Assembly (NCBI GenBank): GCA_946902875.1
Contig: OX336336.1
Location: 4,558,545 to 4,622,544 of the forward strand
From: Nematopogon swammerdamellus
Lineage: Eukaryota > Arthropoda > Insecta > Lepidoptera > Adelidae
Length of the DNA: 64,000 nt
Reading direction: 5' to 3'
The notes under the pieces were generated by a model that was not told where the DNA came from, ran no database searches, and saw nothing but the letters and a program-made list of their open reading frames with translations. Below are positions 13,206 through 57,300 of the stretch, piece after piece. The stretch's first letter is position 1; every line of letters begins with the position of its first letter. The translations under genes were made by a program, and so were the position numbers.

Positions 13206-16200
13206 ATGAAGACGAGGTCTCAGTCGAAGAGAGGACCAGAGGCAGCGGATTCACACACACGCCCTGCATCCGACTCGGGTGCTGTCGACACGGCGGCTGG
13301 GCGATCACGACCGGGCACCTCCTCAACCTCGGAGGGCTCGGTCTCGCCCAGCTTGCCTCATATGTCGGCCGCACACAATACCCCGAGACGTGAGGCAGGA
13401 GACGTGAACCCGGTGTCTCAAACGGAACCACCGGCGGCGCGACCACCTCCAACACCGCCGCCGGCTTCTGTTGCAGGAGGAAATCGTCGCAGCGGCTTGA
13501 GCTCAGCACATTCTTCACGGTCAGCATCCACGGTCATTGCGCGCAAGTTTGCTGTAGAAGCTCTTCATGCGCGCAGGATGCTGGAACGAGAGGCTGAGCG
13601 TGAGCGCATTGCTGCCGCACGAGAGGCAGAGCGCGAGCGCGTTGCTGCGGAACGTGAGCGTGAGGTGGCAGAGATGGAACTACGGGCGGCGCTTGCTGCC
13701 ATCGACGCCGCCACAAGTGCGCATGGTGTCGCCAGCGGCAGCGTGCGCACCAGTTCCATGCGCACACAGGATTGGGTTTATGGTTCCGATTCTGACCCAT
13801 TACAGGTTAATGATGTTACATTACCTTCACAAAATGAATCGCAGGCATGTAGAACGAATGTCGGCATACAGCTACAGGATGAAGCTCTCGCCCAAGACAC
13901 AATAACGTTCCTAACCCCTGTAAACTTGCCTCACAATGAAAATTTTACACAGCAGGTATTGTGGCCGCCGGCTGTCGCTGGTGCTGCCGTTGCTCGTCAA
14001 CACGACGCGCTGCCCGTGCGCGATCCTCGGCCACCCGCGACAGAGCAATCGGTGCCGCAACTACCTGAGCGAAATGAAGCAAAGATGCCGACGAATGCTG
14101 GGCTCGCGTCCCTACGGTCGCCGCTCGCTCAACCACCACTTCTGCCGCCTTCGATGATAAGCGGAACAGAACAGGTTAACTGTGAAGCCGGTGAAACTAA
14201 CCCAGCTAATATTACACTCAATAAAGAGATACCATCGGATATTTCTCAACTTGCATTAGCCATCGCCGCTTTAGCTGACAAATCTAGTTCAAAATCACAC
14301 AACAGGGTCTCCAAGCCGTGGTACATAGAGCTATTGCCCTACTCCGGAAGTCCCACCGAGTGGCTCGGGTTCAAGCGAACCTACGAAGACACTAGGGCAT
14401 CGTACACGACTGTAGAGAATCTAGCGCGTCTGCGGCACGCGCTGCGCGGTGAGGCGCGCGAGGCCGTCGCCTCGCTGCTCATATCGGCGCACGACCCCGA
14501 CGAAGTGATGCGAGCGCTTGAACTTCGTTTCGCTCGCCCTGAACAGATCGTACTGCAGGAGCTCGCCGCCGTGCGCTCTATGCCGAGGCTGAACGAGAAT
14601 AAAGATTTGAATGTATTTGCATGTAAACTTCGAAACTGTGTTTCTACTATTGTATTGTTAAATAAACATGAATATTTGCATTCTCCTGAACTATTCGATG
14701 CATTGTTAGCGAAGCTGTCGCCGTGGATGCGAAGCAGATGGATGGACTTTGCGGCCGAGCAACCGGAAAAGGTGAAATTAGAATTATTGTCAGATTTTAT
14801 CACGCGTGAAGCAGAACGACAGGTTAAATTTGGAATCATATCTCATGCTAATACGAGTGCACATTTTGAATCAGACAAGAAACGAGAAAAAGTTCACGCT
14901 ACGTCTGCCTTTTCATCGGTCCCAGCAACTTGCATTTATTGCAGTGAAAAACACAACATCTGTTCTTGCAGTAAATTCAAGTCGCTCCCTGTAGACGATA
15001 GGTGGCGCTGGATACGCCAGAAGAAAGTTTGTTATAGGTGCCTCAGTGCCAATTCTCATCAATGGAAGACGTGTAAAACAAAACTATGTGATCACGATGG
15101 TTGCCAACTTCGGCACCATTCTCTTCTACATGGGGCAACATTCCCTCCTATCAGCAAACCGAGCACTTCTACAATAAATATGTGCGCTTCTGACATTCTA
15201 GGAGAGAATGTTGACACAGTAGAAAAAAAGTTAGACAGTAAGTTAACTACGAGTACTATTCCAGAGCAGAGGCTCACAACAGAGAAAAATATTATTTTAA
15301 ATAACACTTCGGTCACTTCCCTAGCTACACGACAGCGACAGGGCCAAGTACTGCTGAAAGTAATTCCTGTCGTGGTATGCGGACCAGCCGGTCACGTTGA
15401 GACGTACGCTCTGATCGATGATGGGTCTACTGCTACATTGATTGACTCGTCTGTGGCTGAGCGCATAGGTGCGAAGGGCCCCGAGGGGCGCATGACTGTA
15501 AGTGGTGTTAAGGGAATGACAACCGAAACAAAAATAAATTATGTAAGTTTTTATATCAGAGGTCGGCACAGTGACGAAGTTCACACGGTGCGAAATGCTC
15601 ATTCCGTTCCTTCACTCGGTCTGGCCCGACAGACCGTTAGCCGTGTGGACTTGGCCCGCCATCGCCACCTCGCTGACTTGGTGGAAGAGCTCGCATACGA
15701 GGACGCCACGCCCACGGTTCTCATAGGTAGCGCGGACTGCCTTCTGACATACTCTAAATGCACAAGGAAGGGTTCTCATTCGGAACCGTTAGCGTGTTTG
15801 ACACCTCTGGGCTGGGTCGTTCATGGGTTCGAGTCTAGCAAAACCAAAACTGTGCAATATGTAAACCATACTGTAGTAGAAAGTAGTAGTTTTACCAATG
15901 ATCAGAATCTTGAAAACTTGATAAAGAAGCAATACAAGCTCGACTCGATAGGTATTCTGAAAACCGAGTTGTGTACTCAGAATGACCGTCGTGCCCAGGA
16001 CATTCTTGAATCCACATCTCGCCGTCTTTCTACGGGCAGGTTCGAGGTTGGCCTCCTGTGGCGTGAGGACAACGCCGAACTTCCGGAAAGTTTCTCTTTA
16101 GCACGTCGTAGGCTAGAAATGATCGAAAATAAGATGGCGAAAGATTCACTGTTCGCTACTGCATACAAGAAGAACATGAATGATATGCTGGACAAGGGTT

Positions 16201-19200
16201 ATGCTGAGGAATGTCCTCCTTCTAAAAATGGTATTGAGCTGAACCGTCGCTGGTACTTACCACACTTCGGAGTAACCAATTCGAACAAACCTGGAAAGCT
16301 TAGGATTGTTCACGACGCTGCAGCCAAGAGTCAAGGAGTAAGCTTGAACTCATTCTTGTTGCCGGGACCAGACCTTCTTCAACCTCTTCTGGGGATCCTG
16401 TTCAGATTTAGGGAAGGTCGTATTGCAATGACCGCAGATATCCAGGAGATGTTCCCACAGATCAAAATCCGAGAGCAAGATCGTGATGCTCAGAGATTTC
16501 TGTGGCGGGATGGCAACCCAAACGCTGAAATAAGGCAATATAGAATGAGCTCGGTAATCTTCGGTGCTACTTCCAGCCCTTGCACAGCACTCTATGTTAA
16601 GAATAAGAACGCAAAGGACTTCGAAACGGCTTACCCTGATGCAGCTCACGCTATTATTAATGATCACTACATGGACGATTTCATTGGAAGTCTCGATGAT
16701 CCATGTGCTGCTGCACGTCTCGCCTCTGACATAGTGACAGTTCACCAGAAATGCTGCTTTGTCATGAGGAGCTGGGTATCAAACGATCCAACCGTTTTGG
16801 CCAATTTATCACCAGAACTACGACTCATCCAACCATCTAACATTAAACTAGGTTCGATCCAGCCTACTGTCCGCACTCTAGGTCTGATTTGGAATCCTAC
16901 GCGGGATTCCCTGGGTTTCCAAACCGGGTTGCAAGGAGAAGTTCCAGAACAACTTACTAAAAGGAAAGTTTTGTCTCACGTTATGCGCGTTTATGATCCA
17001 CTTGGGCTCTTGGCTCCAATCGTAGTACGCGGTCGTATCCTTTTTCAGCAGACCTGGAGAACTGGAATCGGTTGGGATGAGGCATTCGAACGAGAAGAAG
17101 ATGAGCGGTGGCGTGAGTGGTTCATCGACCTCCACGCAGTCAGAACTCTGCATTTACCTCGATGGTATCTGCGTGATCCGGATTTTGCTGTTTGCGAGTT
17201 ACACCTTTTCTCGGACGCAAGTGAGCTCGCCTATGGTTGCGTAGCCTACTGGAGATTCACATACGCGGATGGAAAGGTGGAACTCTCCCTTGTGAGCAGC
17301 AAGGCTCGAGTCACGCCGCTAAAACCTTCAACGATACCTAGACTAGAACTGCAGGGCGCACTTATCGCGGCTCGTCTCGCAAATACGATTCGCGATGAGC
17401 ATAGGTTAAAACCGACACGAACTCAATATTGGACTGATTCCACTACAGTTCTCGGATGGCTCCGAAGCGATGCTCGCCAGTTCAGAGCATTCGTCGGTCA
17501 TCGAGTTGGTGAGATCTGCGAGACGACAAACGTCGCTGATTGGAGATGGATTCCGAGTGCTCTGAACGTGGCTGACGACGCCACTCGCTCAAAGTCGGGT
17601 CATTTGGGCTCAGACCATCGATGGTTCACCGGTCCTGATTTCCTACTGGAATCTCCGGAAAAATGGCCCACAGAACCGTGTAAGACGGAATCGCGTATTC
17701 ACAAAGACGTTGATAATGAAATAAAAATGAAACTGATGGACTCAAGTTGCACTACAGTGCAAATCTTGTATGCAACAGTTTCGGCGAATTCTAAGCGATT
17801 CAGTAACTGGCTACGCTTATTAAGAGCGACTGCATACGCCCACAAATACATCAAATTATTGAAAGATCGCGTTTTGGCAAAGAAGACCAAAAATTCTACC
17901 GACCCTGACTATCTTGTATCCTTGCGTCGTAAAGTTTCTTCTGTTTCAGATCAGCCAGTGACTCGTACTTCAGTACGAAGGGGGCCACATTTTATTCAAG
18001 ATCCTGCGGCTTCTGTACGAAGGGGGCCACACACTGCTCCACTTACATCTGCGCAGAAGCCTACTCGCACACTTCCTTCGTCAGATGTTCCCTTGTCCCC
18101 TTCCACTCACACCTTCATCCCTCTGAGCGCTAATGATTTACGTGAAGCAGAAACGCACGTTTTACGTCAATGCCAGCAAGACACATTTCTTCGAGAAATA
18201 GCCAGCATTCAAGCTGCTCGACCGATACCTAAACAAAGTCGACTATGGAATCTCTCACCTGAGCTGGATGACGACGGCATCCTCCGCTTGATTGGACGCA
18301 TAAAATCTGCACCTGAAATTGATGATGAAGCAAAACGACCGATTATACTTGACGGAAGACACTGCACAACACGACTACTAGTAAAAAAGTTCCACGTGGA
18401 TGCTGCACATGCGAATAATGAAATGGTGATAAACCAACTGAGACAACGTTTCTGGATCTTACGTCTACGTGATACCGTCAGAAGTGTTGCAAAAGAATGC
18501 CAGTTCTGTCGAATACGCCGAGCTACCCCTCCAGAACCACCAATGGGAGACCTCCCTGCCGAGAGACTAGCTCATCACCATCGAGCTTTTACCTTTATTG
18601 GAGTCGATTACTTCGGACCCGTACAAGTAGCTGTTCTTCGCAGACGGGAGAAGAGATATGTGGCGCTTTACACATGCCTAACATCGAGAGCAGTTCACCT
18701 CGAAATAGTCGGAAGTTTGTCGGCAGACGCCGCAATAATGAGCTTACGGCGCCTAATAGCACGCAGAGGAGCGCCAACGAAGATATTTTCCGATAATGGA
18801 ACTGCCTTTGTCGGAGCGTGTAATGAACTATCAGCACTTTATGATCAGGCCGTTGGTGATTTTGCAGCGAATAAGGGGATACAATGGAGTTTCATCCCGC
18901 CTGCATCCCCGTTCATGGGTGGGGTTTGGGAAAGGCTCGTTAGAAGTGTGAAAACAGCACTGAAAGTAACTCTTCATGAACGAGCTCCAAGAGAAGAAGT
19001 TTTGCACACCCTACTCCTAGAAGCTGAAGCAATAGTCAATTCCCGACCATTAACCTACGTTTCAGTCGACCCCAATGATCCCGAAGTATTAACCCCCTTT
19101 CATTTTATACTAGGATCCCCATCTACATCTCCTCTACCTTTGCAACTTGACGATGCAGATCTAATGCGAAGATCAGACTGGAAGAAGGCCATTAGACTAT

Positions 19201-19469
19201 CCGATCACTTTTGGTCTAGATGGGTGAAGGAATACCTCCCTACTCTTCTCCCCCGACGAGGAGCTGAACCTGTGCAGAACATGGCCATAGGAGACCCGGT
19301 GCTGATAGCCGATGGCAACCTCCCTCGAGCGACTTGGCCGAGAGGACGCATTACTGCAGTGTTTCCGGGTAAGGACGGCGTGGTTCGCGTTGCAGATGTG
19401 AAAACAAGCGGAGGGATTTTACGCCGACCTGTAAAGAAACTCGTGCGCTTGCCGGTTGATTCCGTGTGA
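13206..19469 (+). CDS. BEL/Pao Gag-Pol polyprotein
   Basis: One frame of 2087 residues. Order: low-complexity N-terminus with an Arg/Glu/Ala coiled coil (about 110-175); gag-like region (PYSGSPTEWLGF, about 375-545); cysteine-rich segments at C576-x2-C579 and C609-x2-C612 (nucleocapsid-like knuckle); aspartic protease with the BEL-typical LIDDGSTATLI (D738-D739-G-S); reverse transcriptase with YMDD at 1155-1158; RNase H with D1337, E1381 and D1411; integrase with an HHCC-like zinc region (HVDAAHANNEM .. CQFC) and catalytic D1801, D1863 and E1909; then a C-terminal DUF5641-like domain (about 1960-2080). Start ATG at 13206 is the first in frame, 44 nt after the LTR. The stop lies 29 nt before the 3' LTR. 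All catalytic residues are present and there is no frameshift. An unusual duplicated SVRRGPH segment sits near residue 1590, between RNase H and integrase. Antisense and alternative-frame ORFs within it are shadows. Confidence 0.97.
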   Translation: MKTRSQSKRGPEAADSHTRPASDSGAVDTAAGRSRPGTSSTSEGSVSPSLPHMSAAHNTPRREAGDVNPVSQTEPPAARPPPTPPPASVAGGNRRSGLSSAHSSRSASTVIARKFAVEALHARRMLEREAERERIAAAREAERERVAAEREREVAEMELRAALAAIDAATSAHGVASGSVRTSSMRTQDWVYGSDSDPLQVNDVTLPSQNESQACRTNVGIQLQDEALAQDTITFLTPVNLPHNENFTQQVLWPPAVAGAAVARQHDALPVRDPRPPATEQSVPQLPERNEAKMPTNAGLASLRSPLAQPPLLPPSMISGTEQVNCEAGETNPANITLNKEIPSDISQLALAIAALADKSSSKSHNRVSKPWYIELLPYSGSPTEWLGFKRTYEDTRASYTTVENLARLRHALRGEAREAVASLLISAHDPDEVMRALELRFARPEQIVLQELAAVRSMPRLNENKDLNVFACKLRNCVSTIVLLNKHEYLHSPELFDALLAKLSPWMRSRWMDFAAEQPEKVKLELLSDFITREAERQVKFGIISHANTSAHFESDKKREKVHATSAFSSVPATCIYCSEKHNICSCSKFKSLPVDDRWRWIRQKKVCYRCLSANSHQWKTCKTKLCDHDGCQLRHHSLLHGATFPPISKPSTSTINMCASDILGENVDTVEKKLDSKLTTSTIPEQRLTTEKNIILNNTSVTSLATRQRQGQVLLKVIPVVVCGPAGHVETYALIDDGSTATLIDSSVAERIGAKGPEGRMTVSGVKGMTTETKINYVSFYIRGRHSDEVHTVRNAHSVPSLGLARQTVSRVDLARHRHLADLVEELAYEDATPTVLIGSADCLLTYSKCTRKGSHSEPLACLTPLGWVVHGFESSKTKTVQYVNHTVVESSSFTNDQNLENLIKKQYKLDSIGILKTELCTQNDRRAQDILESTSRRLSTGRFEVGLLWREDNAELPESFSLARRRLEMIENKMAKDSLFATAYKKNMNDMLDKGYAEECPPSKNGIELNRRWYLPHFGVTNSNKPGKLRIVHDAAAKSQGVSLNSFLLPGPDLLQPLLGILFRFREGRIAMTADIQEMFPQIKIREQDRDAQRFLWRDGNPNAEIRQYRMSSVIFGATSSPCTALYVKNKNAKDFETAYPDAAHAIINDHYMDDFIGSLDDPCAAARLASDIVTVHQKCCFVMRSWVSNDPTVLANLSPELRLIQPSNIKLGSIQPTVRTLGLIWNPTRDSLGFQTGLQGEVPEQLTKRKVLSHVMRVYDPLGLLAPIVVRGRILFQQTWRTGIGWDEAFEREEDERWREWFIDLHAVRTLHLPRWYLRDPDFAVCELHLFSDASELAYGCVAYWRFTYADGKVELSLVSSKARVTPLKPSTIPRLELQGALIAARLANTIRDEHRLKPTRTQYWTDSTTVLGWLRSDARQFRAFVGHRVGEICETTNVADWRWIPSALNVADDATRSKSGHLGSDHRWFTGPDFLLESPEKWPTEPCKTESRIHKDVDNEIKMKLMDSSCTTVQILYATVSANSKRFSNWLRLLRATAYAHKYIKLLKDRVLAKKTKNSTDPDYLVSLRRKVSSVSDQPVTRTSVRRGPHFIQDPAASVRRGPHTAPLTSAQKPTRTLPSSDVPLSPSTHTFIPLSANDLREAETHVLRQCQQDTFLREIASIQAARPIPKQSRLWNLSPELDDDGILRLIGRIKSAPEIDDEAKRPIILDGRHCTTRLLVKKFHVDAAHANNEMVINQLRQRFWILRLRDTVRSVAKECQFCRIRRATPPEPPMGDLPAERLAHHHRAFTFIGVDYFGPVQVAVLRRREKRYVALYTCLTSRAVHLEIVGSLSADAAIMSLRRLIARRGAPTKIFSDNGTAFVGACNELSALYDQAVGDFAANKGIQWSFIPPASPFMGGVWERLVRSVKTALKVTLHERAPREEVLHTLLLEAEAIVNSRPLTYVSVDPNDPEVLTPFHFILGSPSTSPLPLQLDDADLMRRSDWKKAIRLSDHFWSRWVKEYLPTLLPRRGAEPVQNMAIGDPVLIADGNLPRATWPRGRITAVFPGKDGVVRVADVKTSGGILRRPVKKLVRLPVDSV
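17975..18026 (+). other. Two internal polypurine-tract-like motifs in pol
   Basis: ACGAAGGGGG occurs at 17975-17984 and 18017-18026 inside the frame, and again at 19484-19493 as the terminal polypurine tract. The contexts also match (ttcagtacgaagggggcc, ttctgtacgaagggggcc, ttcagcacgaagggggca). Confidence 0.8.
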
Positions 19470-20180: not shown

Positions 20181-22438
20181 ACATATCGAGGGCTTACTTC
20201 AAGAATGCACTATGTCAAAAAAAATCGATTTTGACTTAATTATACAGTTTTGTTCATTATTTCTTGCGCTACATTTTTCAAAAACACACTAAGTTGTACA
20301 CTGACGAGATCCAAAGATAGCTATAGCATTAAGTCATAATATAACTACTTTGTACAAGCAAAAAGCACTAAATGACATGATTCGAATAGAATGGCACTAA
20401 GTTCTGATTATTGTTGAAATTATAGTCAACGTAAATACACTAAGTACAATTTAGTGCCTTACTGTAAATGTTTTTTAGGTTAATCGCAAAATGTAATTCT
20501 TCTGAAATGCATTAAGTCTACTTAGTGTTATTTCACAAATACAAATTCGATAATTCGTGGTAGAATACTATTCTACAAGAAAGCATTAAGTGACTTAATG
20601 CATTTCATGTTGCGGTTTTGGCTTACTCAGACTTAATTAAATCATTTTCAAAAAGACATTATGTCACTTAGTGCATTTACGAAGACGCGATTTTTAGAAA
20701 CGTCGTCAAAACTTAGTGCGAAAAGCACTAAGTCGGACTTAATGTATTCTTGGCCATATTACTTGAAGTGGTGGTTGTTAACAACTACACTGGCCGATGC
20801 ATTAAGTCGACATAAATTAGAATTGTGTGCTTGCAATACTGAACCGTGGATGGCACCTCAAGCATTCGCTGAGTGAATTTGTTAGTGAGCTGTTGTAATT
20901 TGAGGTTATCTAGTTAAAAATGAATTTTTTTTTTGGCAAGATGAAGCGTTTTCTCTCTGGTAATCGTAATAGATAGATGAAGATCAATACAACTAGTTTA
21001 GTAGCAGCCACCATTTTAATTCACTGAAAAATTATAATCCCGTAAAACTGTCTTTTTAATCAACGATGCAATTAGAGAAGCTTTAGAGATTCGCCTGCAT
21101 AGTTATTACCTCCAAGGATATTACGGATTGTATGCGGTACACCCACGGCCACCATTGAAGCCATACTCTGTCTGTCAACGCTGGACCTATGTGTCAATCA
21201 GGAGGCAGCGGCGTCCGCATTCAGACTCAAGGCACTATGATTATGAAAAGGGGACGAACCGGTAAAGCACACAAGTGTCCTGCACACGGTGTGCAGTGAA
21301 CTACCCTTATTAATGACCAACCCCCGGCCCATCTAGTGAGACGGAACTAAGAATCTTCACAGACGGGTCAAGGACAAGCAGCTGGACCGGTGCGGGCATT
21401 TTCTCACGTGAGCTGAACATTAATAGATCAGGACGACTTGGTGCACACTCAACAGTTTTCCAAATGGAAGTAATCGGGGTGCTACAAGCGCAACCGCTGG
21501 GACTGAGATGGGCGTATGTCATGTACACTGCACTACAACGAAGAGGCTCTAGAACTATAACCATAGGAGCGGAACCCGTGATAATGTCGTCAGCAAGCAT
21601 ACAGAAAACTTGGTTGAACTTGGACTTGGTTGCACGCGTCGACATCACGGAAGCACAGGGACAGATGGAAGGGCCTCTCAGAGTGCAGACAGTCGAGAGC
21701 TGCTCTTCCTAAACCAGACCGAAGGCTGGCTCTGAAGCTTATCAATCTGGCCCGGGCTAAGCTGAGAATAGCCGTTGATCTTATGAGCGGCCACTGCTCA
21801 CTAAATAAATATCTACACACCGTGGTTATTACGAATAGCCCACTGTGCAGGGAATGTTTGGCGACGAATGAAATGACCGAGCATGTTTTGTTGGAGTGCA
21901 GTGTGCTTGACAACCAACGAAGGGACATACTCCGTTCTCCATCTTCCGTTGCAGAGGTCTGCAAACGCCCCAGTCGACTTGTGGCTTTCTTCCATGAAAG
22001 CCTTTTTTCCATGACATAGGCTGGCTGGGGTAACTGGAGATCGCAGGGTTTTGCACGAAGGTCCTCAACCAAGCGGGACTAGTTTGCAGGCCTAGAGCCA
22101 ACCCCAAACCAAAGCACCAACCACAACTGTCTTTTTCATTAAATTACTATAAGACTTAACGCAGTATTTTTATTTTACTGCAAAATTAACCGTCAAACAA
22201 AATACACTAAGTCAGTACCTTCTCCTACACTTTTGAATATAAAGTGCTATTGTGTGAACATATATTTTTTTCATTAATAACATTTTTAACCTCGATAGAT
22301 AATAAATCCCGGTACATAATACTGATATTGTAAATATAAGTAGAATTTTTTATAAATTTTTTGTAAACTTTAAATCTTGATTATCTCAAAACTACTTTTT
22401 CTGACTTAATGCATTCTTGAAGTAAGCCCTCGATATGT
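20181..22438. mobile_element. TIR DNA element rich in a GCAYTAAGT motif, with a nested LINE
   Basis: Terminal inverted repeats of about 39 bp: acatatcgagggcttacttc..gaatgca at 20181 onward, and its reverse complement ending at 22438. Subtracting the nested LINE (21058-22124) leaves about 1.2 kb. The motif gca(c/t)taagt, in both orientations, occurs at least fifteen times (for example 20325, 20393, 20509, 20583, 20712, 20725, 20800, 22204, 22405), often as inverted pairs. No transposase frame was seen, so it is non-autonomous. Superfamily not assigned and target duplication ambiguous (flanks are AT-palindromic). Confidence 0.8.
21058..22124 (+). mobile_element. 5'-truncated LINE (RNase H and C-terminal zinc region)
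   Basis: Flanked by a 12-bp target duplication aactgtcttttt (21046-21057 and 22125-22136). Broken frames contain LRIFTDGSRTSSWTGAGIFS (RNase H start with its Asp), then LMSGHCSLNKYLHT .. SPLCRECLATNEMTEHVLLEC, a C-terminal His/Cys pattern typical of I/R1/Jockey-type LINEs. The 3' end (gttttgcacgaaggtcctca .. ccaaccccaaaccaaag) recurs at 51608-51716 and 56664-56818. Stops and frameshifts show it is dead. Confidence 0.82.
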
Positions 22439-45149: not shown

Positions 45150-45311
45150 ATGGCTGAGAGTATGTTCCTAGTGTTAGACTTCGATTCTGTATGTCGCCTG
45201 TGCCTGACTGCTCGCGGTCGCCTCTTGACCGATATCTTCCACCCAGAGGAGGAAAATGTTGACGAGTGGCCTCCGCTGCACCAACAAATCGCCCTTCTCA
45301 CTGGGATACAG
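45150..45311 (+). CDS. ZAD gene exon 1: first half of ZAD
   Basis: 54 codons, MAESMFLVLDFDSVCRLC .. HQQIALLTGIQ, with the first zinc-binding pair C15/C18. Donor cag-gtttga, phase 0. Confidence 0.9.
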
Positions 45312-48300
45312 GTTTGAACACTGTTTTCATACATAAAATTTGTTTGCAAGTTCCCTGCGAACAACCAACCTGTTTACCTTATCTAGTGGTTCGAAGCGAT
45401 CACAAATCGTTTATTTGTACTATAATTAGTTTTCAAGGCCTTATCTAAACAATTAAAACTATAAAAACTCGTACACAACGTTAGTGCAGTGTTACTCAAA
45501 GTCTGGTCCACAGACACAAGATATAAAAAATACTCATTGTATTATGTTACAATATTGGCAGCTTGTCGGGGGTGAAATTGGCAGCGCCTGAGGCTTCGAC
45601 CCAGTTCGGAAGCAATAAAAAAAATATAAAAACCTGTAATCATGGGGAGTGAACTGACTGTGGTGTCCGTGTAATTCTTGTATTTTTATGGTGAGTATGT
45701 ATTGTTAAATAACTTATTAGCAATACATACTCAATAAGATATAGATACATAACGTGAGATACATTTTTCATGTTTACATAGGTAAGTAAACTAAAGAGTA
45801 GGTAGTTTCACATAGATGCAGTGTACTGTATGTATGTCTCTTTCAGCTGTTTCTCTCTCTCTCTCTTTCTCTCCTTTATTTCTTTCCGTCTGTTTGTCAT
45901 TTCTGTTATTTGTAGGTTTCTGTTAGATTATTTTGTTTCATGTTCATGTCTCAAGCTGTATTCTTACTTATGTACTTAATATTATGTGAAAAACGTTGCT
46001 GGGTCTTTACATACTCAATTTTATTTTGTATTACCTTGTTGTTCTAGATGTAAATTCCTGTTAAAATTTGAATAATAAAATGTTATTTCGGTCTTTTATT
46101 TAATTTTTTTTTAATATACCTTCATAAAAAAATCTGCCAAAGGTCCTCAAATGAACAAATGTTTCATATGGGAGTACACACACTGTAAAACTTTGAGAAG
46201 CTTTGAGAACTTTTAAAACTTTGCGCTAGTGCCTTCTTGTTGGCGCGGTAGCTGGCATGGCGCCTCTCTGAGTGTGTTTTCGAGTGAATTGGTGTTATTG
46301 GCTGATCTTCTTTTGAACTTTTGGGCACAGACACCCGTATCGGATGTTTATAAAAATAAATCAGACTGAATATCATCTAGTATTCTAGTATCTACAATTA
46401 GAATCTTCCATTCATTTTACAGCTTTTAAATTTTAACAGATATAATTGTTGAGATAACAGATCACTACCTTTCATCCGGCGACCGTCGTCGTGTGCGAAC
46501 AGGTACTTACTGTCTGTCCTCCCTCACAGATATCCCCTTCAGACAAGTTGCCGCAGCGCATCTGCTACAAGTGTCGCCACCTGGTGGACCTGTGCTACGA
46601 GCTGCGCGACTCCGCCGAGCGCACGAACCGTCTGCTCATCGAAGCCACTAGCAACTCGGATCAACTTCCGCCACAGAATGACGTGAAGAAAGGTATGTCA
46701 AAAGTATTTGTAAAACATTGTGTATGTTGTTGTGGTTTTGTTGTTGTTATGGTTTGTTGTTGTTGTGGTTTTGTTGTGGTTTGTGGTTTTATTGTTGTTA
46801 TTGTTGTTTTGTTTTGTGGGTATGTCGTTATTGTGGGTTTGTTCCTGTTGTGGTTTTGATTGTTGTGATGTTAGTTTTGTTGTTGTATTTTTTTTCTATT
46901 GCTGTGGTTGATTAAAATAATGAAGACTTTATTGGCTTTACTGTAGTGTATTATGTGCTTGTTGTGTTTATTTTTCTTGATATAATTAACATTAGGTTAT
47001 ATTTGTACCGTGTGGGGTCGGTACTTAAAAAGAATAGCCCCACTGCATCTCTCCCCGTCGCATGTCGTAAAAGTCGACTAAGGGATAAGAAAATTCGTCA
47101 GCCTCGGTAGCTCAGTGGCGCGGTTGGTTAGTCAACTGTTATTAAGCAACGCTGAGCGCGGTCAGTGTTTGGATGGGTGACCGCTCGACCGTTGGAGGCT
47201 GACCGTGGTTCGGATTCCACGTTAAACTGTAGGTCCCTTCCCTTCTTACCTTACTAGGTGGTAGGGTTTATCCCGGCCGGGTTGGTACCACCGCACTGAA
47301 CGAAACGTCGGTCGAAACGGCTATGTAAATAGTTCGTGTTTTCCGTCCAGTTTAGTGTAGCCGACATGAAATGAAGGGAAGCACTGACATGGCACCTAGT
47401 TCACCCTGTGTTATGGGCTGACATCACGGATGTTGTAGGTGATGTAGCCAACCGTGTCAGGTTCCATAAAAAAAAAAAAAAAAAAAAAAAAAAGGTACTT
47501 ATTATATGACTAGAAGCAACTGGAAGACAAACGGCGGGGACATGACATTTTACACAGACATAGACCAAACCAAAAAAACCACCGAGGTTTCCGAACAATA
47601 AAAAAAAAGTTGAAAGAACACATTTCTTGTATGGGGACCCCCCTTAATTTTTACTTTTTCTATTTTATATAATTTTTTGTTATATTCGCCATAAGCTAGC
47701 TATTACGGTTCAGATACAGCCATCGAAAGGACTGACAGACTGACAGACAGACAGACAGACGGCGTAAGCTTAGTAATAGGCTTCCGTACGGGGTACGGAG
47801 ACCATTAGGTCTCATATTATTAAACAAGAAGAAATTTTATGCTAAGTACCTATCTATGGCATAAATCAAAAAACTATTTTTTTTTAGCTGAAGGGGGCAG
47901 ACACTACCATGATAAACCTAACATGTAGATAATTGTGGCTGTTCGTAAGGCTGTCCCCTTCGTAGGCTGGTTTTAAGTAGGTATTATATACTATCTGTGA
48001 ATGATTTCAGAAATTCTGAACAGTGAAGAAACTGGGATATTCACAGAAGACACATTTAACAATCTCGTCGACGAGGATTATCCTGATCCAGGCCCGACTG
48101 AACAGAAATTGGAAGAGGATCCGGCGGTGCCTGTGTGTGACAATTTGGAAGTCAATGTGAACAATAACAGTATCGTAACAGCACCAGTTCGGAACAATGT
48201 TGTGCAAAGTAAGCTATATATAGGCTTAGATGAAGAAATTATACAGACACTTTCTCATACAAAATCATTAGAAAAAAGTATAGCCAATTCAACCCTTACT

Positions 48301-51300
48301 TATGCAGGGTTATTTTGTAAAGATCTCGCAGTTGTTGTTGTTGCATTTTTTAACTGCACACTTCAGTATGGTCACACATCTGGCGCTCATAAAAAATATG
48401 TTTGTTGTTTTATGTGGTGATAAATTGTGACAATTAGAGATAAAATAATTTTTCAATGTTTCCTCAATGGTCTAAATTCTCGAAGTAATTTTTTTAGGAA
48501 ATATTTCCTTTCAGTACTTTAGGATTTCAAAAGTCTTTACCTTATGTAAGTTTTAAATTATTTAGCGCATAATTCGAAATTTGTCCATCTATGGTGGTGC
48601 ACCTGTGTACCTCATTCCACATCTAATCCTACTATACCTAACCTAATACAAATAAAAAACCTAACAAAACCTATACCTTCTTCATCTTTAGGTTACTTCA
48701 AGTTCATCATTCTAGCATCCTAAATTTAAGTGTTCATCTTCACCTCTCGCCCGCTTCCTCTATTGAAGAACTTTCCACACCCTGTAAATCAGGGTGTTTT
48801 ATACATACTAGCTTTTGCCCACGGCTTCGCTCGTGTAAATTCGTATTTAAAAAGAAAAAATTAAGTAAGCCCGCTTCGGTTTGTATGAGAGCCACATCTT
48901 AGCGTAACCGGAATAGAATTTTATTTAGCCTATCCTGTGTTCCACATAGTTAAATGTGCTTGTACAAAGTTTCATCGGATTCGGATGATCGATTTATGAG
49001 TTATGGAGGAACATACATACATACAGAAAATATTTCTAAAAATCCTTAATTTAGTTTTAGTATCATACATAGAGTCTACAAATGCAATATCTCATAAAAC
49101 AAAGTAACTTACTCCATGACTATCCCTTACAGATTTATTATTAGTATTGAGTATTGATATTGATTGATGATTGATGAGAATAAAGGTTTTTAAAATCTGC
49201 AATTTTAAAAATTTCAGAAACTTCGCCCAAGAAGCATTTCAAACTCAAGCACCCCAAGAAACTGACATGCGAAATCTGTCTCACCCCATTCCAATCGAAA
49301 GAGAAAATGTCGCTTCACGTACGACAACACTACCAGGGCTCCGACCTCACGCCGTACGTGAACATGAGAAGGCCGTTCCGATGTGAGCAGTGCGACCAGG
49401 AAGTTCTGAACAAGACGCAGCTCGTTCATCATCATCTGAGACATTTGAATTTGAACCCGTTCTTCTGCCGACAGCCCGGCTGCAGTTACATTGGCAAGTC
49501 TAAGGTTGGGCATTTTTTAAGGTGCTTACTTTTATTATTATTATTATTATTATTTATTTATATACACTAGCAGCTTGCAGCTGATGCGTGTACTTCACGT
49601 GTTGAGTGCACTGTTTTATAATAGATCTTATTTATATTTTTTATTGTTTTATTTTTTTTTTTTTTTTATTTTTTTTAGAGAGAAAGTAATAAGTGACATT
49701 TCAACTGTCTAGGGTAAGATATTATTTAAGGGACCTATTTAAAGCAAATGTGAAAACAATGTAATTCTGTTTATATCACATGCATATGCAAATAGCGCTC
49801 CACCGCCATAAAATAAATATGGCGATGAATGCTCGAACTATGAAAGGCAAGCTTTGAAATTTTTCAAAATCTCTCTTTTCGCCACTTTTCTCACAGTGAT
49901 GACCAGGGATCGGAATAGTTAAAACAGTATAAATACCTAATGTTGGCGAGATGACCTGACATGAAGTGGTTAAAACCACCTCTTTCGGGAATTCTGAAAA
50001 ATTTCCGAGAGTTCTGGGATTTGAAATATATATCCTGGTACCTAGTGATATAGTTAGTAACTTTTGATATGCATGACAACACATGCACATGCACCTTAAT
50101 CAGATTTTTTATTTAAAATTTTATTTTTATTTTTAAATAAGGTAATCATACATTACATCATGTTACAAGTGTCAAAAGTTACTAACTATATGACTACCAG
50201 AAAATATTTTTGAAATCCCGGAATTCCTGGGAATTTTTCAGAATTCCCGAAAGAGGTTGTTTTAACCAGTCCATGTTAGGTCTTTTCGCCAACATTAGGT
50301 ATTGATACTCTACCTATTCCGATCCCTGGTGATGACCACCGAGATAAAATTAATTTCGAGAGTAGATTCTTAGAGAGCAATTTTGCTAAAAGATTTATCC
50401 ATTGATTGCAGCAAAAGGGTTAAAAAATAATGTTATCATAATTATTCAAAATACTTTAGGATGCTCTTCGTCAGCACGGCTACACGCACGGCGGACGCTC
50501 GTACGTCTGCGAAACCTGCGGCTCTTCCTTCCGGAGGAACTTCGACCTGCAGCAACACATCATCCGGCACGCAGACGAGGGCACACGCTTCCCATGCCGC
50601 CGCTGCGGCGTCGTGTGCGCCAACAGGATCACGTACCGCAGCCACATGAGGACGCACGAGCGAGCACGCAGGTGTGTTGACACAGTAGTCCTGCAGCAAC
50701 ACATCATCCGGCACGCAGACGAGGGCGCACGCTTCCCGTGCCGCCGCTGCGGCGTCGTGTGCGCCAACAGGATCACGTACCGCAGCCACATGAGGACGTA
50801 CGAGCGAGCACGCAGGTGTGTTGACACAGTAGTCCTGCAGCAACACATCATCCGGCACGCAGACGAGGGCACACGCGTCCCATGCCGCCGCTGCGGCGTC
50901 GTGTGCGCCAACAGGATCACGTACCGCAGCCACATGAGGACGCACGAGCGAGCACGCAGGTGTGTTGACACAGTAGTCCTGCAGCAACACACATCATCCG
51001 GCACGCAGACGAGGGCAGACGCTTCCCGTGCCGCCGCTGCAGCGTCGTGTGCGCCAACAGGATCACGTACCGCAGCCACATGAGGACGCACGAGCGAGCA
51101 CGCAGGTGTGATGACGCAGTAGTCCTGCAGCAATACACATCATCCGGCACGCAGACGAGGGCACACGCTTCCCGTGCCGCCGCTGCGGCGTCGTGTGCGC
51201 CAACAGGATCACGTACCGCAGCCACATGAGGACGCACGAGCGAGCACGCAGGTGTGATGACGCAGTAGTCCTGCAGCAACACACATCATCCGGCACGCAG

Positions 51301-54300
51301 ACGAGGGCACACGCTTCCCATGCCGCCGCTGCGGCGTCGTGTGCGCCAACAGGATCACGTACCGCAGCCACATGAGGACGCACGAGCGAGCACGCAGGTG
51401 TGTTGTGACACAGTAATCCTGCAGCAACACACATCATTCGGCACGCAGACGAGGGCACACGCTTCCCGTGCCGCCGCTGCGGTGTCGTGTGCGCCAACAG
51501 GATCACGTACCGCAGCCACATGAGGACGCACGAGCGAGCACGCATGTGTGTTGACACAGTAGTCCTGCAGCAACACATCATCCGGCACGCAGTTGAAGGT
51601 TGAAGGTGTGTTGTTTGTTGTTGTTGCTTTGGTTTGGGGTTGGCTCTGGGCCTGCAAACAAAGCTTGGTTGGAGACCTTCGTGCAAAACCCCGCGATCTC
51701 CAGCTACCCCAGGGAGACTGACATATAACTGCAAATGTTTTTCTTCCAGTCAACCTTTCCTTAAATGACCTTGAATTTAAGAAAAATGTGCCAATTTTTG
51801 TTTTTGTTTAATAAATTTGGTGCACTGTTTGTGTGTAGTTACAAATGCGAGCGTGTGGGGTGTCCAAAGGCGTTCTACCACCGCGCGGAGCTGCGTACGC
51901 ACACGCGTTCGCACGACAACGACCGCAGCTACCGCTGCCATCTGTGCGTCTCTTCGTACATCTCACAGTCGCAGCTTAATCGGTACTACGCGGCACTCAG
52001 AATTCCTTTATCTTGGCTTCCCAATTAATTAATATGCTTACACCTCTTGGCTTCCCAATTAATTAATATGCGTGCACCTCTTGGCTTCCCAATTAATTAA
52101 TATGCTTACAGGGAAGCCAAGAGGCTTGGGAGGGAAGCCAAGAGGCTCTTAGCTTCCCAATTAATTAATATGCTTACACCTAGTATTGTGCTCTGATCCT
52201 TCTGACTCAACACCCATAAAAAGCCGTTTTTTATTGAACCAAAAAACAACCGATATACGTTTGAGATTGCATATAATTTTCTTAAATCTAACATTATATC
52301 ATTACTTAAATTCTACTTATCTGCACACAATTCGCAGAAAAAAACAGTACATACATGAAAGTTAGGTACAAAAGAAAATACGCTAGTTTGAAAGCAAACC
52401 TTGTGTACACTTGTTTTATTCCCTTGTGCCTAAACTGGTCCAATTGGCCGTCTTATAGGCAGTATTAATACTATGCAGTAATATACCTACTATTAATCTA
52501 TTTTTAGTTCTAAAATCTAAAATCTACCTGCTTCTTTTATTTACCATATATTATGTGAGTGAGTGTGTGTGTGGTGTAGATTGTGAGAAGTGATGGGACA
52601 TAAACTGTAAATAAAAAAAAGAGTTCACATTCATTGAGTCAGACAATATATAATGTCTGAACAGCAGTGGCGGTTATCCAGGTGAAGCAAGTGAAGCACC
52701 GCCTCACTTAATTATCTTGAAGGTAAAGAAAAAAAATTTTCAAAATACCATGAAAGAAAATTAAAAAAAAGTCCATCCAAACTGATCAGAGAACATTATA
52801 GACCAGAAGCGAACGGCGCACGGCGGCGGGGCGCGGCGGCGCGTAGGCGAGCCGGCGGTGCGGCGCGGGGAGGTGGTGCGAGAGGGGTCCTTAGAGGTGA
52901 CGAACGAAATACTTCAGCTCTGCGCCAAAGATGTGTTAATGCATACAATACACATGTACTTGTCCACGCGCGTGTGTTGGCGCAAATGCCGACGACAGCA
53001 CCATACAGCACAGCGCATAATTTGAAAAAGTACCAGGGACACAGCCATGACAAGGAGCCGCACGCGCGGGAAAAATCATTGCATGACATTGTTCACAGTT
53101 GGTGAGACGACGGACACATCCGGCTCATATCGCTTCACCTCGTAGAGACAAAAGTTTGACCTTGAATTCGTTGCATTTACCTAGCAATTGAGGCGCTGAT
53201 AAATCCTGCCGCATGAATGAACGATTACGTCGTCGCTTCGCTCGCCTAGACGGGCGGCGAGCGCTCTGTGTTCCCTTGAAGTACCAGGATACAATCGGTA
53301 GATAAGAGTCTCAGTAAATAACATAACATGTCATACAGCACAGCGCATAATTTGAAAAAGTACCAGGGACACAGCTATGACAAGGAGCCGCACGCGCGGG
53401 AAAAAACATTGCATGAAATTTGAATTCGTGGCATGTATAATGCGCGGGACGGATCTCGGCGTGTCGTCGCCCGCCACGCGCATACACTATACACGTACGG
53501 TGCGGGTGCGAGGGAGAACACTGACGAACCGCTGCGGCGGCGACACGCCTAGATCCGCCCCGCGCATTATACCTAGCAATTGAGGCGCTAATAAATCCTG
53601 CTGCATAAGAACGACGTCATCGCTGCGCTCGCCTGCGAGCGCAGCGATGCGGCGAGCGCTCATAAAGCTCATGAAGTACCAGGGCACAATCGGCAGATAA
53701 GAGTCTCAGTAAATAACATAACATGTCATACAATATTTTTTCCCGCGCACAGCTCCCCACCACGGCCAACCCTACCAAAAAGGTAACGATTTTGTGGTCC
53801 GATTGATGTTGAAGTACCAGGGTGCAATCGGTAGATAAGAGTCTCTGTAAATAACCTATCATGTCCCATAATATTTCTTCCCACAGAGCTCCACACAGCT
53901 CCCACGGCCTCTCTCGGCTGCTCTCCTGGCACCTTTTCAAATTATGTGCAAAATTCTATCATAGGAATATAAATTTGTATTACGTCGCTGCGCTCCTTTA
54001 TTTATTATATATGTCGTAGGATGATTTGATAAATCGAATTTTCGCGAAAATTCTAGGGATTTTGCGAAAACACGGATAATTAGATTCGAGGTTAGAGGTC
54101 GAGACTTCAGGTCTCGGTGAGATCTATCCATCTGTCACATGAACTTTTGTTTTGGTCATAACTCGAGAACCACTGGTGCTAGACCCATCGTGTTGGTACT
54201 CAAACTTCAGGTCTCGGTGAGATCTATCCATCTGTCACAAGAACTTTTGTTTTGGTCATAACTCGAGAACCACTGGTGCTATACCCATCGTGTTGGTACT

Positions 54301-57300
54301 CAAACTTCAGGTCTCGATGAGATTTATCCATCTGTCACATGAACTTTTGTTTTGGTCATAACTCGAGAACCACTGGTGCTAGACCCATCGTGTTGGTACT
54401 CAAACTTCAGGTCTCGATGAGATTTATCCATCTGTCACAAGAACTTTTGTTTTGGTCATAACTCGAGAACCACTGGTGCTAGATCCATCGTGTTGGTACT
54501 CAAACTTCAGGTCTAAGCTATGTAGGTGGATTTTTAGTCGCCTCACTAAAATTTATTGGTCAAAGCCGCCACTGCTGAACAGATAACACTATCAATCTAG
54601 TTTCCCATGAAAAAGAAGTATTTATTTATATCACAATATGTCAGTTTGTCTTTACATAAAATAAACATAATTAAATCCTACAATTTTCTCATGCGACTGG
54701 CGCAGACACGTGCGTATGCACCAGATACGCAGACTCAACAAGTGCGACAAGTGTTGCGCCACCTTCGACAACTACGCCGCGTTCTGCAACCACCGCATCC
54801 GCACGCACGGCGCCTGGCAACCGCACAAGTGCATCGGCTGCAACCAGGGGTGAGTCGCGACCGTTTTACACGTTGAGGGAGACCGATCCCAGCCTCGTTC
54901 GTTCTTTTATTGTGGCCTTTTTTGTTTTTCTCCAATATTGATTCAGTCTTTGAAAATGAACTGCCGTGCACCCGACGCACGGCAGTGCCCCCGCCAAGTC
55001 GTGCAAACACGGCCGTACCATCCTTTTCCGCGAAGCAACTCTTTTTTGCCAAAACAACTTTTCTGTCTCCTGTATCTTTGTTGTTATTATTGTAGCCTGA
55101 TGCGTTGTCACAATTTTTGTTTCCACAATAAATAATCTTGTCCTAACACTTGGCTAAATGTGGTAGGTCGGTGTTGTACTGTAAGTTACAAGAGTACTTG
55201 CAGCACAAAACCGACTACTCTGCTTACCCCGATAGTCGGGATACACCCTATGTAGGACTTCGGCCTCTCGCGTTCGGGAGGTGCGGTCCACTCTCCCTGG
55301 CTGACCAGGCCTGTCTGGGAATGGTTTCTGTCAATACAATATTCTGTGAAAATAATCTAAACATAATGTACATAATTTACTTTAAAAAAAAAGAATACCT
55401 ACAAATTATATCAATAAAAGTTATAGGAAATGTTTTGTAGTATATTTTTTTCTTCTCTTTTTCTTGTATCTTTGTAATTTACTTTTCTTTACGGAACTTG
55501 TGAAAATTGTGCACTTTAGAACATAAACTCGAAGAAAGAGGCTTTCAGTTTGTGCTATTTACTGGCTGTGCCTGGTGCTCCACTCGCTGTAAAGGAATTG
55601 GTAGATTTTTTCTGCGTGGATGTGTATGGTGTAATGGCGTGATGCTAGATAGCCATAACCTGGTGGAGATTTGTCTTGTGTTCTTGAGTTTAAAGCGAAC
55701 GTGCATATATAAGGTATTTCATTAGTAGGTAAAGATACGCTAAGGGGTGTATGTGTATCAGATACTGATCACGTTCCCAAACCAATATTTTTTTTTAAGA
55801 TATATAAAACCTACTCACTCCTCAAATTTTATATGTGAAGTGCGCGTATTTCACCTTAATAATGGGTACGGGAACGTGATCAGTATCTGATATACATACA
55901 CCCCTTAGCTTATCGTTACCTACTATTGAAAGACCTTATATACATATACACAGGTGGCAGTCGTTTAGCTCAATAGTTATCTTGTCCGAACACTTTGCTA
56001 AATGTGGTGGGCCGGTGTTGTGCTGTAAGTTACAAGAGTACTTGCAGCACAACGCCGACTACTCTGCTTACCACGATAGTCGGTATACAGCGTGCGGTGT
56101 GCTTGTAGGTACCAGAGCGAAGCGCACCTGGAGAAGCACACACTGCGCTGCAAGCTGGCCATCAACGTGAAGACTCTGCTCGGCGCGGAGGACGTCAACT
56201 CTCTCGGCCTGCCCAGCCCTCAGCAGGTGACGACTATTCATCATTTGACTTGTCATTTTATTATTATTGTTACTTTTTTTCACATTTTTACCATGCATTT
56301 ATATTAACCTGTTACGTTCCCTGTCATCCGCGCGGATGACCCTAAACAATACAAAACAATAGATAAGTTTAAGTTAGGAAGTGAATAGGTTAATTTTAAA
56401 TTTTATATTATACAAAAACTTATAAAAATACACAAAATTAATACAAAATCTAAATAAAACGGTAAATATCCGCCGGCGGCGGGAAGCAGGCCTCCAAGCG
56501 CGCCGGCGGGTGCAGGCCGTGGCTACGGAGCTCTCCGAGACGACGCGAGACTAGCTACGAGCGACAGGTGGTGGTACTGTACTGTGTGGGGTCGGTACTT
56601 AATAAGAATAGTCCCACTGCATCTCTCCCCGTGCATGTCGTAAAAGGCGACTAAGGGATAAGCGGCCTGCAGACACCCCGGTCGACTTGTGGTTTCCATG
56701 GAAGACATAGGCTGGCTGAGGTAGCTGGAGACTGCGAGGTTTTGCACGAAGGTCCCCAACCAAGCGGGATTAGTTTGCAGGCCTAGAGCCAACCCCAAAC
56801 CAAAACAACAACAACAACCCAGTCGGCTACAATTTGAGCATACCACCTAGTAAGGGGCAAGGGAAGGGACCTACAGTTTTACACCGGTTTCGAACGGTGA
56901 AGCAGCAGTTTTTAAGGTATGCACGTAAATTTTTTCGTCAGAAAAAACTCATTGGTACACAACGACCGGATTCGAACCGAGGACCTCTCGCATGAGAAGC
57001 CGATGCCCAAACCACTCGGGCACCCGCCGCTTAAATTAATTTTGCATTTATATTAATTTTACATATTTTATATTATACAAAAACTTATAAAAATACACTA
57101 AATTAATGCAAAATCTAAATAAAAACGGTAAATATCCACCGGCGGCGGGAGGCAGGCCTCCAAGCACGCCGGCGGGTGCAGGCCGTTGCTACGGAGCTCT
57201 CCAAGACGACGCGAGGCTAGCTACGAGCGATAGGTGGTGGTACTAGACACGTAGGCCACCAACACCCCCATCTCGGAGAGCTCCGTATCCGCCGGACTGC

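Follow-up and report, generated by a model that had tools for sequence, protein, structure and literature searches.

The zinc-finger array of PRDM9 lies within one exon, and every copy is translated, open and in frame throughout. According to the available part of PMC3890296, this array is a minisatellite, in which the tandem unit encodes a C2H2 finger and is prone to copy-number change. In potato, a tandem duplication across an exon–intron boundary multiplied splice sites; the intron 1/exon 2 side with the acceptor was duplicated, and a new intron was made, as described in the accessible part of the review PMC3443670. Among insects, the turnover of ZAD-ZNF genes consists of whole-gene gain and loss, as far as the accessible part of PMC7655104 reports.

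Here we describe a tandem array within a gene of the moth Nematopogon swammerdamellus (Lepidoptera; Adelidae). The array lies in a stretch of 64,000 nucleotides, called the window here (contig OX336336.1 of assembly GCA_946902875.1, positions 4,558,545 to 4,622,544, forward strand), and all positions below are those of the window. Its unit resembles that of PRDM9 in encoding a C2H2 finger. The PRDM9 minisatellite is coding, however, whereas the unit described here carries a splice donor (compared with the available part of PMC3890296), so that the copies count as intron, except when splicing uses an outer donor. Furthermore, the copies are not all open and in frame: a stop is found in copy 4, and the frame changes in copies 4–7. 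In comparison with the potato case, as given in the same part of PMC3443670, the present array repeats the donor side, seven times in all, and a new acceptor or intron is not evident. The gene belongs to the same class as the ZAD-ZNF genes in turnover (accessible part of PMC7655104), but its finger plan is kept in a caddisfly. No published case of a donor-bearing finger array was found among the titles and abstract openings that the literature searches listed.

The host gene and its homologues

The exons of the host gene were modeled as follows.

45150..45311, + strand: exon 1, start of the ZAD domain (reading frame and splice sites)
46530..46692, + strand: exon 2, remainder of the ZAD domain (exon model, zf-AD match)
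48011..48208, + strand: exon 3, linker (exon model)
49218..49504, + strand: exon 4, fingers 1 and 2 and the beginning of finger 3 (exon model)
50460..50671, + strand: exon 5 to donor 1, end of finger 3, fingers 4 and 5 (model; the arrangement of P0001 matches)
51839..51982, + strand: exon 6, finger 6 and the beginning of finger 7 (exon model)
54706..54849, + strand: exon 7, end of finger 7, finger 8 and the start of finger 9 (exon model)
56109..56226, + strand: exon 8, remainder of finger 9 (exon model, P0001 alignment)

Joining exons 1–8 via GT/AG sites gives an open reading of 476 residues, and the model ends at exon 8. The zf-AD domain (PF07776) is located at residues 14–90 of the joined protein with a score of 52.1 bits (cut-off 28). 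The C2H2 model (PF00096) gives 62.5 bits across the whole protein, and four stretches pass individually; nine fingers were counted by eye. According to this predicted order of an N-terminal zf-AD domain followed by C2H2 fingers, the gene is a member of the ZAD-C2H2 (zf-AD) class. The introns flanking exon 5 are 955 bp upstream and 1167 bp downstream, counted from donor 1. No close paralogue was found in the same genome among the 150 candidates scored out of 1682; the ten best after the gene's own exons show 30–35% identity. Among the C2H2 matches listed, contig C21 was the commonest by eye, and contigs C29 and C16 also occurred; C21 may hold a large zinc-finger gene cluster.

A search among 5.8 billion proteins yielded 22 hits. 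The best by a clear distance, P0001, comes from the caddisfly Arctopsyche grandis; this uncharacterised protein has nine fingers and aligns at 36% identity with 99% coverage. Its alignment from finger 5 to finger 6 is gapless and shows the donor-1 junction with no extra finger. In the joined protein as in P0001, seven residues separate the final His of finger 5 from the first Cys of finger 6. In a second search starting from the gene and P0001 as a pair, P0001 remained the sole full-length close relative among 31 hits. The second-best of these, P0023, is uninformative on the fingers because its 263 residues contain the ZAD domain alone and cover 20% of the query. Four of the 31 were aligned: P0001, and P0007, P0015 and P0002, which show 23–25% identity and no extra finger at this place, with doubtful orthology. 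As a single full-length close homologue was found, the ancestral state rests on P0001 together with the frame of copy 1.

Anatomy and surroundings of the array

Tandem Repeats Finder (TRF) places the array at 50546–51592, with a period of 146, 7.2 copies and 96% matches. Cut at a common start (50547–51592), it consists of seven full units and one partial unit, as follows.

50547..50690, + strand: copy 1, 125 bp exonic (exon 5) and 19 bp intronic
50691..50834, + strand: copy 2, in frame, T13A and H37Y, donor 2 after 50815
50835..50978, + strand: copy 3, in frame, with F15V and all of Cys2His2 retained, donor 3 after 50959
50979..51124, + strand: copy 4, read-through frame closed by a stop, 2-bp insertion, donor 4 after 51105
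51125..51270, + strand: copy 5, 2-bp insertion, donor 5 after 51251
51271..51418, + strand: copy 6, 2-bp insertion and a second, intronic one of 2 bp, donor 6 after 51397
51419..51564, + strand: copy 7, 2-bp insertion, donor position after 51545 with G>T at its last exonic base
51565..51592, + strand: partial copy 8, 28 bp, lacking the 2-bp insertion

The lengths of copies 1–7 are 144, 144, 144, 146, 146, 148 and 146 bp. Compared in pairs, the full units differ in 1 to 8 alignment columns, and copies 1–3 differ from each other by 1–4 changes only. The copies are thus near-identical and arranged head to tail, as in a tandem minisatellite. The sequence-only reading had proposed seven copies of about 144 bp following exon 5. 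The array itself is confirmed, but copy 1 is the 3′ part of exon 5, and the array beyond it amounts to six extra full copies and the 28-bp partial copy.

The unit leaves out the first 87 bp of exon 5. It contains 125 bp of this 212-bp exon, encoding the last eight residues of finger 4, the linker and finger 5, followed by the donor with 19 bp of intron; no acceptor is present. The array is therefore not a duplicated exon, and the description of an amplified exon was not upheld. A whole-exon duplication was likewise rejected, because its copies need an acceptor as well as a donor. In the 699-Mb assembly of 39 contigs, the unit was found at a single locus, and all of the matches found (8/8) are inside the array; according to the search program's own warning, such counts are lower bounds.

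Two features adjoin the array on its downstream side.

51604..51613, + strand: AGGTGTGTTG, the donor 10-mer again, just beyond the array (motif count, repeat alignment)
51615..51712, no strand assigned: interspersed-repeat fragment, 87–88% alike to 56716–56817 and 22025–22126, which are in the other orientation

The 10-mer AGGTGTGTTG was found five times in the window, four of them in the array, against 0.04 expected. The native donor may have left the occurrence at 51604 behind as a remnant, or this 10-mer may belong to the (GTT)n-like end of the neighbouring repeat. The former reading is weakened because the 10-mer adjoins this end. The segments 51615–51712, 56716–56817 and 22025–22126 form one interspersed-repeat family, whose (GTT)n-like end adjoins the array. 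Other repeats were observed in the same gene: tandem arrays in intron 6 at 52011–52110 (34 bp, 2.9 copies) and 54104–54514 (100 bp, 4.1 copies), and, in intron 4, a fold-back-like segment of 441 bp at 49896–50336, which aligns to its own reverse complement (77% over 453 columns). Elsewhere in the window, an open frame of 2087 aa is located at 13206–19469 on the + strand, which we take to read like a retroelement polyprotein.

As a background, 19 stretches of 10 kb, 190 kb in total, were sampled from this genome irrespective of genes. Arrays with four or more copies and a period of 100 or more were present in 6 of the 19 stretches, and those with at least 96% matches in two (L022 and L023). Arrays with long units are thus common in the genome, and the special part is the position of the present array. 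A period of 109 or 110 recurs in four of the six array-bearing stretches; these arrays are perhaps one satellite family, and the background may therefore overstate the ease of array formation.

Donors, reading frames and changes in the copies

The seven donors follow positions 50671, 50815, 50959, 51105, 51251, 51397 and 51545. Donors 1–6 have the common core CAG/GTGTG. The sixth intron base is A, not T, in donors 4 and 5, and donor 7 has lost the last exonic G (CAT/GT). According to the joined exon model, splicing of donor 2 or donor 3 to exon 6 is open and in frame and adds 48 or 96 residues, as had been predicted from the sequence. A frame break from copy 4 onward had also been predicted. 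The 2-bp insertions of copies 4–7 agree with this, but the further 2 bp of copy 6 restore the frame by length: donor 6 (+726) is in frame by length only, and lies behind stops. The forms ending at donors 4–7 all stop after 477 residues, within copy 4. Exon 5 measures 212 nt with donor 1, 356 nt with donor 2, 500 nt with donor 3 and 646–938 nt with donors 4–6. The openness of copies 2 and 3 in frame is not telling, because a unit would be open and in frame by chance in about 18% of cases. This figure combines 1/3 for a multiple of three with 53% for an open frame, the latter obtained with the donor letters fixed and 16 more letters drawn from the gene's six other introns. No signal of RNA structure was detected at the donor or across the unit (z 0.45 and 0.00). 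Three antisense ORFs across the array (182, 217 and 223 aa) were set aside as a presumed by-product of the GC-rich exonic unit.

The competition of near-equal donors was surveyed in PMC9225289. In the available part of this survey, which covers other organisms and is applied to the host gene with caution, the donor closest across the exon, that is the upstream one, is favoured between long introns, and shorter exons are favoured. Taken over all near-equal donor competitions in the survey, the upstream donor is preferred in 60% (same part of PMC9225289). By analogy, donor 1 should beat donors 2 and 3, though not wholly, since a preference of just 60% leaves room for donor 2. The common core of donors 1–6 also leads us to expect some read-through to donors 2 and 3.

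The exonic part of copies 2–7 shows five distinct replacement changes and three silent changes relative to copy 1, and one further change at the last exonic base of the donor. One of the silent changes, at codon 16, is shared by copies 2, 4, 5 and 7 and was counted once; the 2-bp insertions, the variant insertion of copy 5 and three intronic changes were omitted from the count. The replacement fraction expected without selection is 74%, against 5/8 observed (binomial lower tail 0.34). The extra copies thus show no detectable constraint in a weak test, which with eight or nine changes has little power and reads copies 4–7 in the frame of copy 1, since lost.

In copy 2, the last zinc-binding His is changed to Tyr (H37Y), as the sequence-only reading had it, and T13A is also present. 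Copy 3 had been regarded as an intact finger. All four zinc ligands are indeed kept, but the aromatic residue before the first Cys is lost by a change of Phe to Val (F15V). An aromatic at this position is a hallmark of the C2H2 finger. The finger residues of copies 5, 6 and 7 are unaltered, though behind stops. The single-finger scores with zf-C2H2 are 21.7 bits for copy 1, 18.2 for copy 2 and 20.3 for copy 3, none of them reaching the curated cut-off of 25.2, and the corresponding finger of the caddisfly P0001 scores 16.2. Pfam scores were dropped as a measure of decay, because the caddisfly finger, at only 16.2 bits, falls below copies 2 and 3; the scores therefore show no decay.

Formation of the array and its meaning

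We infer the following course. An initial tandem duplication would have fused intron 5, 19 bp from its start, to the interior of exon 5, and slippage or unequal exchange would then have increased the copies to seven. The 2-bp insertion of copies 4–7 is taken as derived, because copy 1 has the functional frame and the caddisfly agrees. It is absent at both ends of the array (copies 1–3 and partial copy 8) and present in the middle. This arrangement, with the old form outside and the derived form inside, is as would be expected from amplification of a middle copy; the insertion may have arisen in such a copy and then spread to copies 4–7. Unit position 48 reads A, G, A, G, G, A, G in copies 1–7, and this alternation needs either exchange between copies or recurrent change. 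Copy 1 would stay the real exon end. As copies 2–7 carry donors and no acceptor, they would be lost together with intron 5 when donor 1 is used. Minor read-through to donor 2 or 3 would give proteins 48 or 96 residues longer, and use of donors 4–7 would lead to an early stop, the mRNA probably being decayed.

According to these results, the array is probably a young exon-derived minisatellite that is mostly removed through donor 1, with leaky in-frame isoforms possible. The sequence-only reading saw instead a finger-number expansion in progress. This is possible yet unsupported: the caddisfly has the donor-1 junction, the changes look unconstrained, and the copies open to translation, 2 and 3, are altered at structural positions while copies 5–7 are intact. 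The fuller form of this idea, in which a regulated choice of donor 2 or 3 gives one or two extra finger units as a true expansion of finger number, could draw on the open reading as far as donor 3, the four zinc ligands of copy 3, the close mutual similarity of copies 1–3, and the scores of copies 2 and 3 above the caddisfly's finger. We consider it unlikely, as copy 2 has no last His and copy 3 no aromatic, the caddisfly homologue has no insert, and openness has a chance of about 0.18; moreover, in the donor 2 form 27 residues, not 7, would separate the last His of the copy 1 finger from the first Cys of copy 2. It is very unlikely that copy number acts as a dial, whereby individuals that differ in their clean in-frame copies would produce, through the choice of donor alone and with no new acceptor, transcription-factor isoforms carrying 0, 1 or 2 extra finger units.

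The spare donors 4–6 might also act as a poison switch, reducing the output of the gene via early stops. They retain the core CAG/GTGTG, and their forms do stop after 477 residues, but exons of 646–938 nt run counter to the short-exon preference in the available part of PMC9225289, and the analysis gave no support for use of these donors; such a switch seems quite improbable. The copy number could also be false, if the assembly were in error here or had mixed two haplotypes, as near-identical arrays are difficult to assemble. The copies carry private changes and indels, however, and the assembly, whose contigs are tens of megabases long, has the array a single time, which makes this explanation very improbable. 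The young minisatellite is most likely a neutral repeat, normally spliced out; a functional role of the extra copies is possible, and copy-number variation between individuals is plausible.

With an exon end and its donor repeated together, donor choice would set protein length, which may offer a one-step route to a new finger number with no duplication of a whole exon. Even if neutral, the array would be a natural test of splicing choice among six or seven near-identical donors, and of whether such leaks start finger arrays.
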